Origin: Stackebrandtia endophytica
GTDB taxonomy: Bacteria; Actinomycetota; Actinomycetes; Mycobacteriales; Micromonosporaceae
Reading direction: 5' to 3'
Length of the DNA stretch: 64,000 nucleotides
Assembly: GCF_006716355.1 (NCBI RefSeq)
Contig: NZ_VFOW01000001.1
Location: 3,720,001 to 3,784,000, forward strand
In this document: one piece after another, positions 3,182 to 8,753 of the stretch
How the letters are laid out: each line of letters begins with the position of its first letter
How positions within the stretch are numbered: the stretch's first letter is position 1
The notes under the pieces: generated by a model
The model's input: the letters and a program-made list of their open reading frames with translations, nothing else
The model's database searches: none
Told to the model about the DNA's origin: nothing
Translations under genes and position numbers: made by a program

Positions 3182-3742
3182 TCAGTACTCGCCACATCCG
3201 AAGGGGCCTTCGTCTTCGCACTCGTAAGGTGGTGGGGTGTGGTTCTCGACCGCTTCGTCGAACTCCGCGTCGGACCCGATCAACGTCCATTCCTGGGTGG
3301 ACGGGCCGAACGTGCCGTTGAGGATGAGGGTGTCGCCCTCCAACGTCCCGGTGTAGATTTTGCCGTTGCTGCTCAGCCCCGTGAGTTCGAAGTAGCCGTC
3401 GGTGAATGTGCCGCCGAACGGTTCGGGATCGTCGTAGTACGGCTTGCCGTTGTCGCCCCAGCGGACGAAGAGGTGCTCTCCGGTGATCTGCCCGTCCGGT
3501 CCGATGGTCATGTTGAGCTTGGAGAGTGCGCCTTCGGTCTCGGCCATGAAGATGTAGGTCCGGGTGGTCTCGGTGTCCCCGCTGTCTCCGGTGACGTCGG
3601 GTCGGTCGCCGTTTGATCCGGATGCCAGGACCACTATGAGCGCGATCAATGAGAAGGACGCGATAACGGCGAGCAGGACGATGATGGTTCGTCGGCCGTC
3701 CGACGTCTGACCGGGTCGACCGTTCGGCGGATCATGGGTCAT
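3182..3742 (-). CDS. Membrane-anchored extracytoplasmic protein of unknown function
   Basis: The 186-residue product has a short cytoplasmic N-terminus, one transmembrane segment at about residues 19-41 (IIVLLAVIASFSLIALIVVL) and an outward-facing domain of about 140 residues. The domain shows alternating polar and hydrophobic stretches that suggest beta structure (GTFTDGYFELTG, IYTGTLEGDTLILNGTF), and ends in an acidic segment with two cysteines (YECEDEGPFGCGEY). Those two cysteines could form a disulfide. I recognise no family. Codon use is typical of the neighbours, so it is probably a real gene. Confidence 0.65.
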   Translation of the reverse strand: MTHDPPNGRPGQTSDGRRTIIVLLAVIASFSLIALIVVLASGSNGDRPDVTGDSGDTETTRTYIFMAETEGALSKLNMTIGPDGQITGEHLFVRWGDNGKPYYDDPEPFGGTFTDGYFELTGLSSNGKIYTGTLEGDTLILNGTFGPSTQEWTLIGSDAEFDEAVENHTPPPYECEDEGPFGCGEY

Positions 3743-4093
3743 GACGATTCCCTTCGTCCTGCGCGAAGGGCGGAACCCCGGTCCCGGCTTCGAACGCTTC
3801 GTACGGCGGGCACAGGGTTGGGTGGCTCGGTGCGCCCTACCTGCAGATGGTATTCGTCACGGCACCGGTTTACTAGGGCCCCAACGAATACATGAGTCGG
3901 TGTGTGCCCCGGATCGATCGGACGCGCACTCGGACGACGTCCCCGGTCGTGTGGGCGCGGTCATCGGTGGCCGCCTGCCGCGGGGGCGTCGCCACCGCAA
4001 CGACCCCGGCGGATAACCGGGGCGACAATTCGCACACCCTCTCGATGGAAATCACCGACGTCAATTATGGTCGACGTTCGAAGAGGTGAGACG
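3743..4093. other. Intergenic region between divergent genes
   Basis: No convincing gene is seen. The left end has an inverted repeat, CCCTTCG...CGAAGGG, at about 3750-3769, just upstream of the leftward membrane-protein start. The right end is richer in A/T (CAATTATGG near 4065) and carries ACGTC...GACGT flanking that A/T stretch, which could be the promoter region of the rightward MqnE-like operon. Neither is strong enough to call as a site. Confidence 0.4.
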
Positions 4094-4744
4094 ATGACGA
4101 ACGAACTGCAGCGCGCCATCGAGGCGAGCTTGGCCGACGGCCACCGCCTGTCCGGCGAGGACGGGATCGGCCGGGTCGAGGACCCGGTGTGGCTGGGACG
4201 TCTGGCGCATCGTGCCCGGGTGGCCGCCTCCGGCGAGAAGGTGACGTTTCACCTGGGAGAAGACTCCTCACCGCAGACGTGCGCGACCGTCGCCTACGAC
4301 GGTGACACCGAAAGCCTGCTGGGCCGACTGTTGCAGTTGCGGGACCGACAGGACGAGGGCGCCGGGTTGCTCGTGGTGGCGCCGGTTCCGCAGGGACCGG
4401 TGGTCGCCGTCGACGCGTTGCGGGCCTTCGCCCTGTGCCGCCTCATCTTGGACAATGTGGAGCATGTTCGGTGCCGGTGGGACGACCACGGCCTCGACGT
4501 CGCACAGCTGTCGTTGAACTTCGGCGCCGACGATCTGAGCGGCGGCGTCACCGGCTACCGCTCCACCCATGACGCGTCTGGCCGCTCCACCAAACCACTG
4601 GAACCGGAGGAGTTGGCCGAACTCATTCAGGACGCCGGGTTCACCCCGATCCAGCGGGACGCCGACGGCGGTGTCGTGCGGGAGTTCGAGCCGCCGTTGC
4701 CCGCCGCGATCCGCCGGGCCGAACCTCAGAAGGTGTGGGCGTGA
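4094..4744 (+). CDS. MqnE-like protein lacking the radical-SAM core
   Basis: The 216-residue product looks like the two ends of aminofutalosine synthase (MqnE) joined together. Residues 1-55 match the MqnE N-terminus (HRLSGEDGIGRVEDPVWLG, LAHRAR...GEKVTFHL). From about residue 70 they match its C-terminal part (LLQLRDRQDEGAGL, ALCRLILDNVEHVR, LSLNFGADDLSG, ELAELIQDAGFTPIQRD). The CxxxCxxC iron-sulfur motif and most of the TIM barrel between them are missing, so it should not be catalytic. MqnE is normally about 380-390 residues. The start at 4094 is set by AGAGGTGAG just upstream; a longer frame from 3902 lacks a ribosome site. It overlaps the next gene by GTGA, and a DUF4229 gene follows, a neighbour I associate with futalosine-pathway loci. 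Role unknown. Confidence 0.75.
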   Translation: MTNELQRAIEASLADGHRLSGEDGIGRVEDPVWLGRLAHRARVAASGEKVTFHLGEDSSPQTCATVAYDGDTESLLGRLLQLRDRQDEGAGLLVVAPVPQGPVVAVDALRAFALCRLILDNVEHVRCRWDDHGLDVAQLSLNFGADDLSGGVTGYRSTHDASGRSTKPLEPEELAELIQDAGFTPIQRDADGGVVREFEPPLPAAIRRAEPQKVWA

Positions 4745-5172
4745 CCGAGACCGAACAGACCGAACGCTTCCCCAAGCGTGACGACGACGGTCGAATCGTC
4801 TCCCTGGTCGAGATGATGCTGTTCGTCATGATCCTGCTGCTCGTGGGTGTGCTCATGCTGTCGGCCATCGACGGCTTGTTCTGGCTGCTCGGGTTCGGCG
4901 AGTTCGGGCAGATCTCCGGTTGGATCGCCGGTCTGCTGGCCATCTTCGTGTTCTTGGACGACTTCCGCGCGTGGAAGGAGTTCCGAGTGCGATGGGGTGT
5001 CGCCCCGGTGGCCCTGGTGTTGTCGACGGTCGCCGGACTGGGCGTGGTGAGCATCATGCCGGAGTTCTGGTTGCCGCTGTACCACGGTGCGCTGGGCGTC
5101 ACCGTGTTCGCGTTGATCTATACGGTGCTGTGGTTCACCGGCATGCGTTTGATGGGGGAGCGGGAGATATGA
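4741..5172 (+). CDS. Four-helix integral membrane protein of unknown function
   Basis: The 143-residue protein begins at the GTG that overlaps the upstream stop (GTGA); a GTG two codons earlier is also possible. After a charged N-terminus (TEQTERFPKRDDDG) there are four hydrophobic segments, at about residues 19-45, 56-75, 85-105 and 115-135. The loops contain DDFRAWKEFRVRWG. I do not recognise the family. Tight coupling to the MqnE-like gene and to a DUF4229 gene suggests the three are co-expressed membrane-associated proteins, but nothing in the sequence shows an activity. Confidence 0.7.
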   Translation: MTETEQTERFPKRDDDGRIVSLVEMMLFVMILLLVGVLMLSAIDGLFWLLGFGEFGQISGWIAGLLAIFVFLDDFRAWKEFRVRWGVAPVALVLSTVAGLGVVSIMPEFWLPLYHGALGVTVFALIYTVLWFTGMRLMGEREI

Positions 5173-5420
5173 GCCCCACTGTGAAGTATCTGCTCGGCCG
5201 GGTCGGACTGTTCGTGGTTCTGCTGGCGTTGTTGTGGCCGACCGGGTTGAACCCGTTGGTGATCGCCATGATCGCGATGCTCGGTTCGTTCGTGTTGTCT
5301 CTGGTGGTGTTGCGCAAATGGCGCGACGAAATGGTGTCGAATGTGGATGCAACGGTGCAGCGTCGTCGTGAGCAGAAGGAGAAGCTGCGCCGCGAACTCG
5401 CCGGTGACGAGGTCGACTGA
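5169..5420 (+). CDS. DUF4229-type small membrane protein
   Basis: This 83-residue protein has two transmembrane helices (residues of about 5-22 and 28-48) and a basic C-terminal tail (VQRRREQKEKLRRELAG). The opening, KYLLGRVGLFVVLLALLWP, and the VLRKWRDEM segment after the second helix are typical of DUF4229, a family of unknown function found across actinobacteria. It starts at an ATGA overlap with the preceding gene and ends a three-gene operon. In other actinomycetes I recall DUF4229 genes beside menaquinone (futalosine) genes, which fits the MqnE-like gene two places upstream. Confidence 0.75.
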   Translation: MSPTVKYLLGRVGLFVVLLALLWPTGLNPLVIAMIAMLGSFVLSLVVLRKWRDEMVSNVDATVQRRREQKEKLRRELAGDEVD

Positions 5421-6971: not shown

Positions 6972-7955
6972 TCATTCGCGATCGGGTGTCATTCCCGTTG
7001 TGGGATTGTCGGCGTCGGCGAGCGTCGGTCGCATCGGCAACAGCGGGCTGACCTTCCCCTGGGAGTTGGACAGCTGGCGCAGCGACGTGATCAGGGTGAA
7101 GTTGTCGTTGAGCACTTCGGTGATCTTCTGCTCCTCGTCGCTCAGCGACATGTTGATGTCGGAACTGGCGCTGATCATGTTGCTCATCACTTCGCTGACC
7201 GTCGGTGCACCGAGTTCGATGTTGTCGGTCGGGTCGGAACCGTCGATCGCGCCGGCGGCGAGACTGGATCCGGCACCGATCGTGGCCAGCACCAGTCCGG
7301 TCACGGCCAGGGAGGTACCGCCGGATGGGATGGCCAGCGCCGCGCCGACCACGCCCGTGAGTGCCGACAAGATGGTCAGACCCATCTTGGCGCCGCCACC
7401 GTCTTTCTGGCCGCAGTCTTTGAGCGCCTCGATGGTCTTGTCAGCCAGTGCGCTGTTGTCTCGCCGGTAACCGTGGTAGAGGTTGACGATTCCCTCAGCT
7501 GCTCCGACGAGCATCTCGGCGACGGTGACCTGGTTGCCCTTGATGATCTCGAAGGGGGCGGTGACGCTGGTCTGGAAGTTGTTGATGAAGGTGCCCCTCC
7601 ATTCCTCGATCTCCCCTTGGACCAGGTTCATGGCTCCCAACGCGGTGTCGCTGGAGAGTTTGAAGTGGACTTGCTGAGCCGACGTGACGATGTCTTCGAA
7701 GTCGGCCGGATCCGGCTTGGCCCGGCTTTCGAGCCAGTCGGGGATCCAGTCGTACTGTTCTCGAACCCAGGTCCGGATCTCATCTTCGGAGTAGTACGGG
7801 CTCGCCGGTCCCTCCTCACCTGCGGCGAGGTCATCTTGACGACGTTCGTAGTTTGCTTCGAGGAAGGAATCTTGTTCCCGAATGGTGGCGTTGGCGGCCT
7901 CTTCGACGATCTCCTCGCCTTTGGCTCGCAGTTCGCTAGGACTGTAGTACGACAT
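6972..7955 (-). CDS. LXG/WXG-like helical protein with hydrophobic Gly-rich core
   Basis: The 327-residue protein has no signal peptide. The first 170 residues are mostly helical and charged, with tryptophans (WVREQYDWIPDWLE, EIEEWRG) and a stretch like T7SS substrates (QVTVAEMLVGAAEGIVNLYHGYR). Residues of about 190-240 form a hydrophobic Gly/Ala-rich stretch (ILSALTGVVGAALAIPSGG, LVLATIGAGSSLAAG) that could insert in a membrane. The C-terminus is again helical. It lies 2 bp after the preceding gene, so the two are co-translated. Together they resemble type VII secretion substrate or partner pairs, but no ESX core gene is present nearby. A secreted effector is conceivable, not shown. Confidence 0.55.
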   Translation of the reverse strand: MSYYSPSELRAKGEEIVEEAANATIREQDSFLEANYERRQDDLAAGEEGPASPYYSEDEIRTWVREQYDWIPDWLESRAKPDPADFEDIVTSAQQVHFKLSSDTALGAMNLVQGEIEEWRGTFINNFQTSVTAPFEIIKGNQVTVAEMLVGAAEGIVNLYHGYRRDNSALADKTIEALKDCGQKDGGGAKMGLTILSALTGVVGAALAIPSGGTSLAVTGLVLATIGAGSSLAAGAIDGSDPTDNIELGAPTVSEVMSNMISASSDINMSLSDEEQKITEVLNDNFTLITSLRQLSNSQGKVSPLLPMRPTLADADNPTTGMTPDRE

Positions 7956-7957
7956 GC

Positions 7958-8518
7958 TCAGCCTTCCCCGTCCTCTTCGGGCTCTTCTTCTTCGGGTGGT
8001 TCGGGCATGTCATCGATGATGTCCTCGATGTCCTGCTCCGTCTGGGTCGGATCCTCCGCCTCCTCGTCACCGGGAGAGTCGTAGTCGTCCGGGAAGTCGG
8101 GTTCACCGGGCGGTTCTGCCGGTGGGTTCTGGGACGGGTCGTTGGGGTCGTGCAGTTGAGTGCCGTCGTAGGGGTCGCCTTCGAGGATCGAATCCAGGTC
8201 GTTTCCGGCGGCCGTGTCCTCCTCGCTGAAGTTCTCGATCGCCTTGTTCACCGCGGAGGCGGTGTCGAGCAGGTTCTGGCCGGTTTGGGCCAAGACATGT
8301 TGGAATTCGCTGTGCAGGCTGTAGAACGCTTCACAAGGGCCGCCGTAGATTGTTTGGCCGTGCGGTCCTTCACCGCCTGTTTCAAAGGCTCCTCGAATAT
8401 CGCCCTGGTTTCCACCCATTTCCGAACTACCTGATGTGTATACGGCGGCCACGTTCGGTAGGTGTACATTTGCCACCGTCCACAATTTATAAAGATCGCC
8501 GCCGGTTACATCGGCCAT
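7958..8518 (-). CDS. WXG100/EspC-like secretion-target protein with acidic tail
   Basis: The 186-residue product starts at MADVTGGDLYKLW (ATG 8518, preceded by GCGAGG). A longer frame from 8614 has an Arg/Ser-rich start that looks untranslated. Residues 1-110 are helical with a pattern seen in type VII targets (FYSLHSEFQHVLAQTGQNLL, then AIENFSEEDTAAG). The last 70 residues are Pro/Glu/Asp-rich (PEPPEEEEPEEDGEG) and surely disordered. It is the first gene of a two-gene operon with the LXG-like gene 2 bp downstream. I infer a small secreted or chaperone-like partner. No WxG motif is present, so family membership is tentative. Confidence 0.55.
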   Translation of the reverse strand: MADVTGGDLYKLWTVANVHLPNVAAVYTSGSSEMGGNQGDIRGAFETGGEGPHGQTIYGGPCEAFYSLHSEFQHVLAQTGQNLLDTASAVNKAIENFSEEDTAAGNDLDSILEGDPYDGTQLHDPNDPSQNPPAEPPGEPDFPDDYDSPGDEEAEDPTQTEQDIEDIIDDMPEPPEEEEPEEDGEG

Positions 8519-8753
8519 GGCGAACCTCGCTTTCGTTCGCTTACTTAGGGCATGGCGACAGCTCTGGGGTGAGCATGGTCGCGCTGTGCTCGCGAGGGTA
8601 TTGGGTTGGGGCAACCCGTTAGCTGAGATTGATGACCGAATGCGGATCCGTCAATCGAACTTGGCTGATAGGCGGAATATGTGCGTAGGCGCGCGGTGAC
8701 GCCGCGAGACGCCCGTGGTGGTCGTCGCGGAAACGGGTGGGGATGGAGTTCCC

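Follow-up and report, generated by a model that had tools for sequence, protein, structure and literature searches.

Results

We have examined a 64,000-nucleotide stretch of the Stackebrandtia endophytica genome (the window), in which an open reading frame on the forward strand at 4094–4744, with an ATG start and a putative ribosome-binding site (AGAGGTGAG, 4082–4090, +, recognized by eye) 5' of it, encodes a 216-residue product derived from the aminofutalosine synthase MqnE. It is followed by a membrane-protein gene that matches no Pfam family (4741–5172, +) and by a gene for a DUF4229 membrane protein (5169–5420, +; 54 bits to the Pfam model). A possible GTG start of the first of these at 4741 overlaps the mqnE stop codon by four bases (GTGA), and the ATG of the DUF4229 gene at 5169 overlaps the stop codon of its predecessor by the same number (ATGA). 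On the other side of mqnE lies a divergently oriented NlpC/P60 gene (1636–2943, −; assigned with Pfam) that serves as a synteny marker, and the arrangement of NlpC/P60 gene, mqnE, membrane-protein gene and DUF4229 gene is conserved in relatives. The first-pass annotation had counted the coupling to the two membrane-protein genes as specific evidence for the short gene, but these genes are not peculiar to the short form, because full-length mqnE has the same pair downstream; both genes trail mqnE widely, whether it is short or full-length, and DUF4229 is encoded within 700 bp downstream of mqnE at 60 of 80 loci, some of them in Frankia-related and further lineages that do not belong to the family. 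The pair itself (4741–5420 in the window; loci L227–L306) suggests that DUF4229 may be tied to menaquinone synthesis. We also note a 186-residue gene (3182–3742, −) that separates the NlpC/P60 gene from mqnE, has an N-terminal hydrophobic stretch judged by eye and lacks a counterpart in the related loci compared, and two adjoining genes of 327 and 218 residues without a Pfam match at 6972–8614 (−).

The similarity of the 216-residue protein to MqnE is significant, and both ends of the enzyme can be recognized in it, as had been proposed from the first reading. Against the NCBIfam model for MqnE, TIGR03700, the protein scores 95 bits (E=4e-27), far under the curated cut-off of 434.55, and the strongest segment places protein residues 103–190 on model positions 259–346 of 351. 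Pfam CofH_C scores 33.8 bits (cut-off 27), MqnE (6xi9) is the only strong relative in a sequence search of the PDB (8e-11), and homology of the N-terminal part is borne out by tblastn against congeners. Three of these congeners (G001; G002, Candidatus Stackebrandtia faecavium; and G004, presumably S. nassauensis) carry a full-length mqnE at the syntenic locus. Alignment to the full-length congener proteins shows that approximately 150 residues (about 63–212 of the full-length protein), which make up the radical-SAM barrel including the CX3CX2C cluster motif, are missing, as are about 20 residues in a second gap (about 252–271), in agreement with the earlier estimate of some 170 lost central residues. 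Mapped onto the forward strand of the window by alignment columns, the kept N-terminal part, with its helices and strand beta-1 (full-length residues 1 to about 60), occupies 4094–4264, the main in-frame deletion junction lies at 4265–4273, the junction of the second deletion is placed approximately at 4385–4390, and the kept C-terminal part, which includes the CofH_C region and ends in the tail RRAEPQKVWA, occupies 4274–4741.

The short gene is a descendant of MqnE that cannot be an MqnE. Descent, as homology and not function, is indicated by the CofH_C region together with sequence, fold and locus, but the CX3CX2C motif and a complete TIM-barrel core are both absent, and the predicted model is a reduced barrel. 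Judged from its sequence, the protein cannot be a radical-SAM enzyme because the segment 63–212 with the cluster motif is gone. MqnC (TIGR03699) belongs to the same CofH-type superfamily and its model matches the C-terminal region of the short form with E=8e-16, although less well than that of MqnE, and the genome carries an intact MqnC gene at a different locus.

A profile search for the same deletion, together with a further search of genus g31, found short forms of 165–270 residues in 32 of 355 family genomes, at the syntenic locus wherever that locus was examined. They include a 270-residue form in the fourth congener (G003), which still has the motif CPQRCAFC, forms in Paractinoplanes aksuensis and P. 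bogorensis, one in G034, and one in each of the six members of genus g31, where both MqnE ends lie close together in frames of 168–184 residues. Short and full-length mqnE were seen together in none of the 355 family genomes searched, and in 26 genomes, S. endophytica included, a single match spans the short-form profile and leaves no room for an additional full-length copy. Among 395 class-wide genomes (which included that of S. endophytica and two others of the family) only S. endophytica itself was positive, and no short form was found outside the family. Close relatives thus do have a full-length gene at this locus, as three congeners demonstrate, but this does not make the short gene a dead product of recent deletion, as had been attached to such a result, given that short forms are maintained in another congener and in numerous further lineages.

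Impairment of MqnE in other genera forms a graded series (L144:5158–6222, L319, L314–L316 and L318). The cluster motif has been lost through partial deletions in Rugosimonospora africana (G024, 355 residues) and in G371 (333 residues), and by substitution and small gaps in G372; in G035, G368 and G369 the motif is kept, with strong divergence at positions that are invariant elsewhere. In G045 an N-terminal mqnE fragment (C54:3955–4212, order relative) has two in-frame stop codons and looks to be truly decaying, in contrast to the short forms with their open frames.

Menaquinones MK-10 and MK-11 are tabulated for Stackebrandtia species (PMC8289206). The S. endophytica genome, a single contig of 5.66 Mb that is 99.98% complete, contains no other mqnE, full-length or otherwise, in a search with TIGR03700, the sole other match being MqnC, which is over its own cut-off (477 versus 428 bits). 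There are two copies of the MqnA/MqnD family PF02621, and the futalosine hydrolase MqnB exceeds its cut-off both here and in G003. We take the PF02621 copy that lies beside MqnB and has the motif SPCPNDTF to be MqnD, and the other to be MqnA, by analogy with the gene order in Streptomyces. MenD was searched for in 42 genomes, 32 of them with short forms, and was found neither over its cut-off in S. endophytica and 12 relatives nor at E≤1e-30 in 29 further genomes. MqnA and MqnD are present in all 32 short-form genomes, and the family-wide search, at its threshold, did not show MqnC in G106 or G107. The futalosine pathway is therefore present in S. endophytica with a hole at MqnE, since MqnA, MqnB, MqnC and MqnD are kept and both MenD and any other mqnE are absent. 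The values of dN/dS between S. endophytica and G003 are 0.04 for MqnC and 0.12 for each PF02621 gene, and the remaining pathway is therefore under strong selection. The classical pathway was rejected as an explanation on the outcome of the MenD search. In no member of the genus, G004 included, does a MenD exceed the NCBIfam cut-off. This contrasts with a report that both menaquinone pathways occur together in the S. nassauensis proteome and in no other (PMC3914697).

Selection on the short forms is purifying, yet clearly relaxed relative to full-length forms. By simple Nei-Gojobori counts, whose values are approximate in this GC-rich DNA, nine close short-form pairs have dN/dS of 0.23–0.46 with every bootstrap interval below 1, compared with 0.05–0.06 in two comparable full-length pairs and 0.05 to 0.24 in a wider set of full-length pairs; some distant short pairs are higher, with values up to 0.93 (G015 versus G005). 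Full-length forms share 109 invariant positions, and at 36 of these no more than two of 27 short forms deviate; 22 columns are invariant among the 27. The short form is confidently modeled as a reduced MqnE fold: AlphaFold2 predictions for the S. endophytica protein (pLDDT 92.2, pTM 0.88) and for a minimal form of 165 residues (pLDDT 92.5, pTM 0.86), made with alignments of relatives only, which included full-length forms for the latter, both have MqnE as their top fold match in the PDB (6xi9/6xig).

These data give good support to maintenance of the short gene at the protein level, and the marks of a pseudogene, namely frameshifts, stop codons and dN/dS near 1, are not what we see; the frames are open in all of the short forms listed, and the initial impression that this is no decaying remnant stands. 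A functionless remnant might nonetheless decay slowly while translational coupling to the overlapping membrane-protein and DUF4229 genes keeps its frame, and the four-base overlaps, the relaxation of selection relative to full-length pairs and the graded series of shrinking forms are all in keeping with such a course. We consider it unlikely, however, both because coupling of this kind sits poorly with the amino-acid constraint in the nine close pairs, the 22 invariant columns and the confident folded models, and because the coupled genes are not adjacent to the short gene in G015 (about 2.7 kb downstream) or at L227 (1.2–1.9 kb), and a flank search in genus g6 found no homologue of the membrane-protein gene.

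Shortening appears to have been recurrent, with the flanking genes implying approximately seven to nine independent events in place. On a tree of flanking proteins, from which mqnE was excluded, the distribution of short forms requires eight changes, of which the starred branches force seven (bootstrap range 7–9). A tree of mqnE third codon positions requires six changes overall and clearly separates two lineages, placing G081/G078 beside full-length G132/G032 (97/89) and G098/G117 beside full-length G125 (97/79), and recurrence within the Actinoplanes-like genus g29 is clear. Within Stackebrandtia, recurrence is suggested by the flanking genes and by an AU test that does not reject a clade of the genus's short and full-length forms (p=0.41), and this case is weaker, with synonymous sites close to saturation in the genus; the corresponding constraint for the g29 group is likewise not rejected (p=0.13).

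These results bear on a different account of origin, in which one ancient short form spread to the mqnE loci of several genera by horizontal transfer or gene conversion, and which does not conflict with a maintained function. All 27 short forms group together (99/99) in the tree built from the retained protein ends, and the main deletion boundaries near 62 and 212 are nearly identical in most lineages; both would fit such an account. The branches in that tree are long, however, and invite false grouping, the flanking-gene tree scatters the short forms, the third-position tree puts two Actinoplanes-group lineages beside full-length sister species, and the Stackebrandtia clade is not rejected. 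There are also distinct intermediates, with G003 retaining its cluster motif and G024 and G371 lacking only part of the core. We therefore think a single origin improbable, and favor the interpretation that the shared boundaries reflect the few foldable ways in which barrel units might be removed.

No replacement aminofutalosine synthase was found in a radical-SAM census of the genus or in neighborhood comparisons. The census, made with PF04055, is blind to radical-SAM proteins outside that family and to other kinds of enzyme, and within the genus it yielded STM4012 as the only radical-SAM family present in both short-form genomes and absent from the three full-length ones; in a wider search, STM4012 proved to be missing from the short-form genomes G005, G015 and G034 and to occur in genomes with full-length mqnE, and was rejected. 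PaaA, which adjoins mqnA in all of the short-form genomes first compared, is an ordinary phenylacetyl-CoA epoxidase subunit and is also present in full-length congeners. Comparison of short and full-length genomes around mqnE, mqnC, mqnA and mqnD gave no convincing gene restricted to the short ones. The literature searched contained nothing relevant on a missing MqnE, on MqnE pseudoenzymes or on a radical-SAM menaquinone pseudoenzyme. That the short form might be catalytic, performing the MqnE reaction with MqnC or by itself as two half barrels, seems very unlikely. In its favor, no dedicated replacement was found, the short form still has conserved residues from the C-terminal side of the MqnE barrel, and MqnC, whose benzoate-bearing substrate resembles that of MqnE, is the nearest radical-SAM relative to remain. 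Against it, MqnC in eight short-form genomes has no shared substitutions and no consistent acceleration relative to full-length genomes, which also argues against a bifunctional MqnC, and the S. endophytica short form has no cluster motif.

Discussion

We have described an mqnE gene that has lost its radical-SAM core, and consider it probable that it encodes a maintained MqnE-derived pseudoenzyme, with aminofutalosine made by another route and the retained parts of the protein keeping a non-catalytic job. In this model the organism's only mqnE would have lost the catalytic, radical-SAM half of the barrel in place and in frame, and another activity would make aminofutalosine from the product of MqnA, such that MqnE catalysis would have become dispensable and MqnA, MqnB, MqnC and MqnD would have stayed under selection. 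An alternative route of this kind is likely because the other pathway genes are retained. The N- and C-terminal parts would fold into the reduced barrel, and docking or scaffolding, serving either other enzymes of the futalosine pathway or the membrane proteins coupled to the gene, is the most plausible job for it, although we propose this role only tentatively. There is no full-length copy for the remnant to partner, since the genome has no other MqnE. It is also conceivable, if speculative, that the family has an aminofutalosine synthase non-homologous to MqnE and that the remnant is its adaptor or accessory subunit, which would explain why catalysis could be lost repeatedly and the gene kept.

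The maintained pseudoenzyme that we propose resembles other enzyme-derived pseudoenzymes in that catalytic residues are lost and the remainder is retained under selection. It differs from them in that half of the barrel has been excised, apparently repeatedly, and in that the genome contains no intact paralogue; this is thus an apparent case in which half of a TIM barrel can be removed again and again with the rest remaining under selection.

The finding reveals a missing step in a pathway that had been regarded as fully worked out, with MqnA, MqnC and MqnD kept, MenD absent, and no competent MqnE. The missing enzyme could be sought in the closely related species pairs that differ in whether MqnE catalysis is present. 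The futalosine pathway has been considered a possible target for drugs against pathogens, among them Helicobacter pylori (PMC13280913), and an alternative to MqnE would bear on such targeting.
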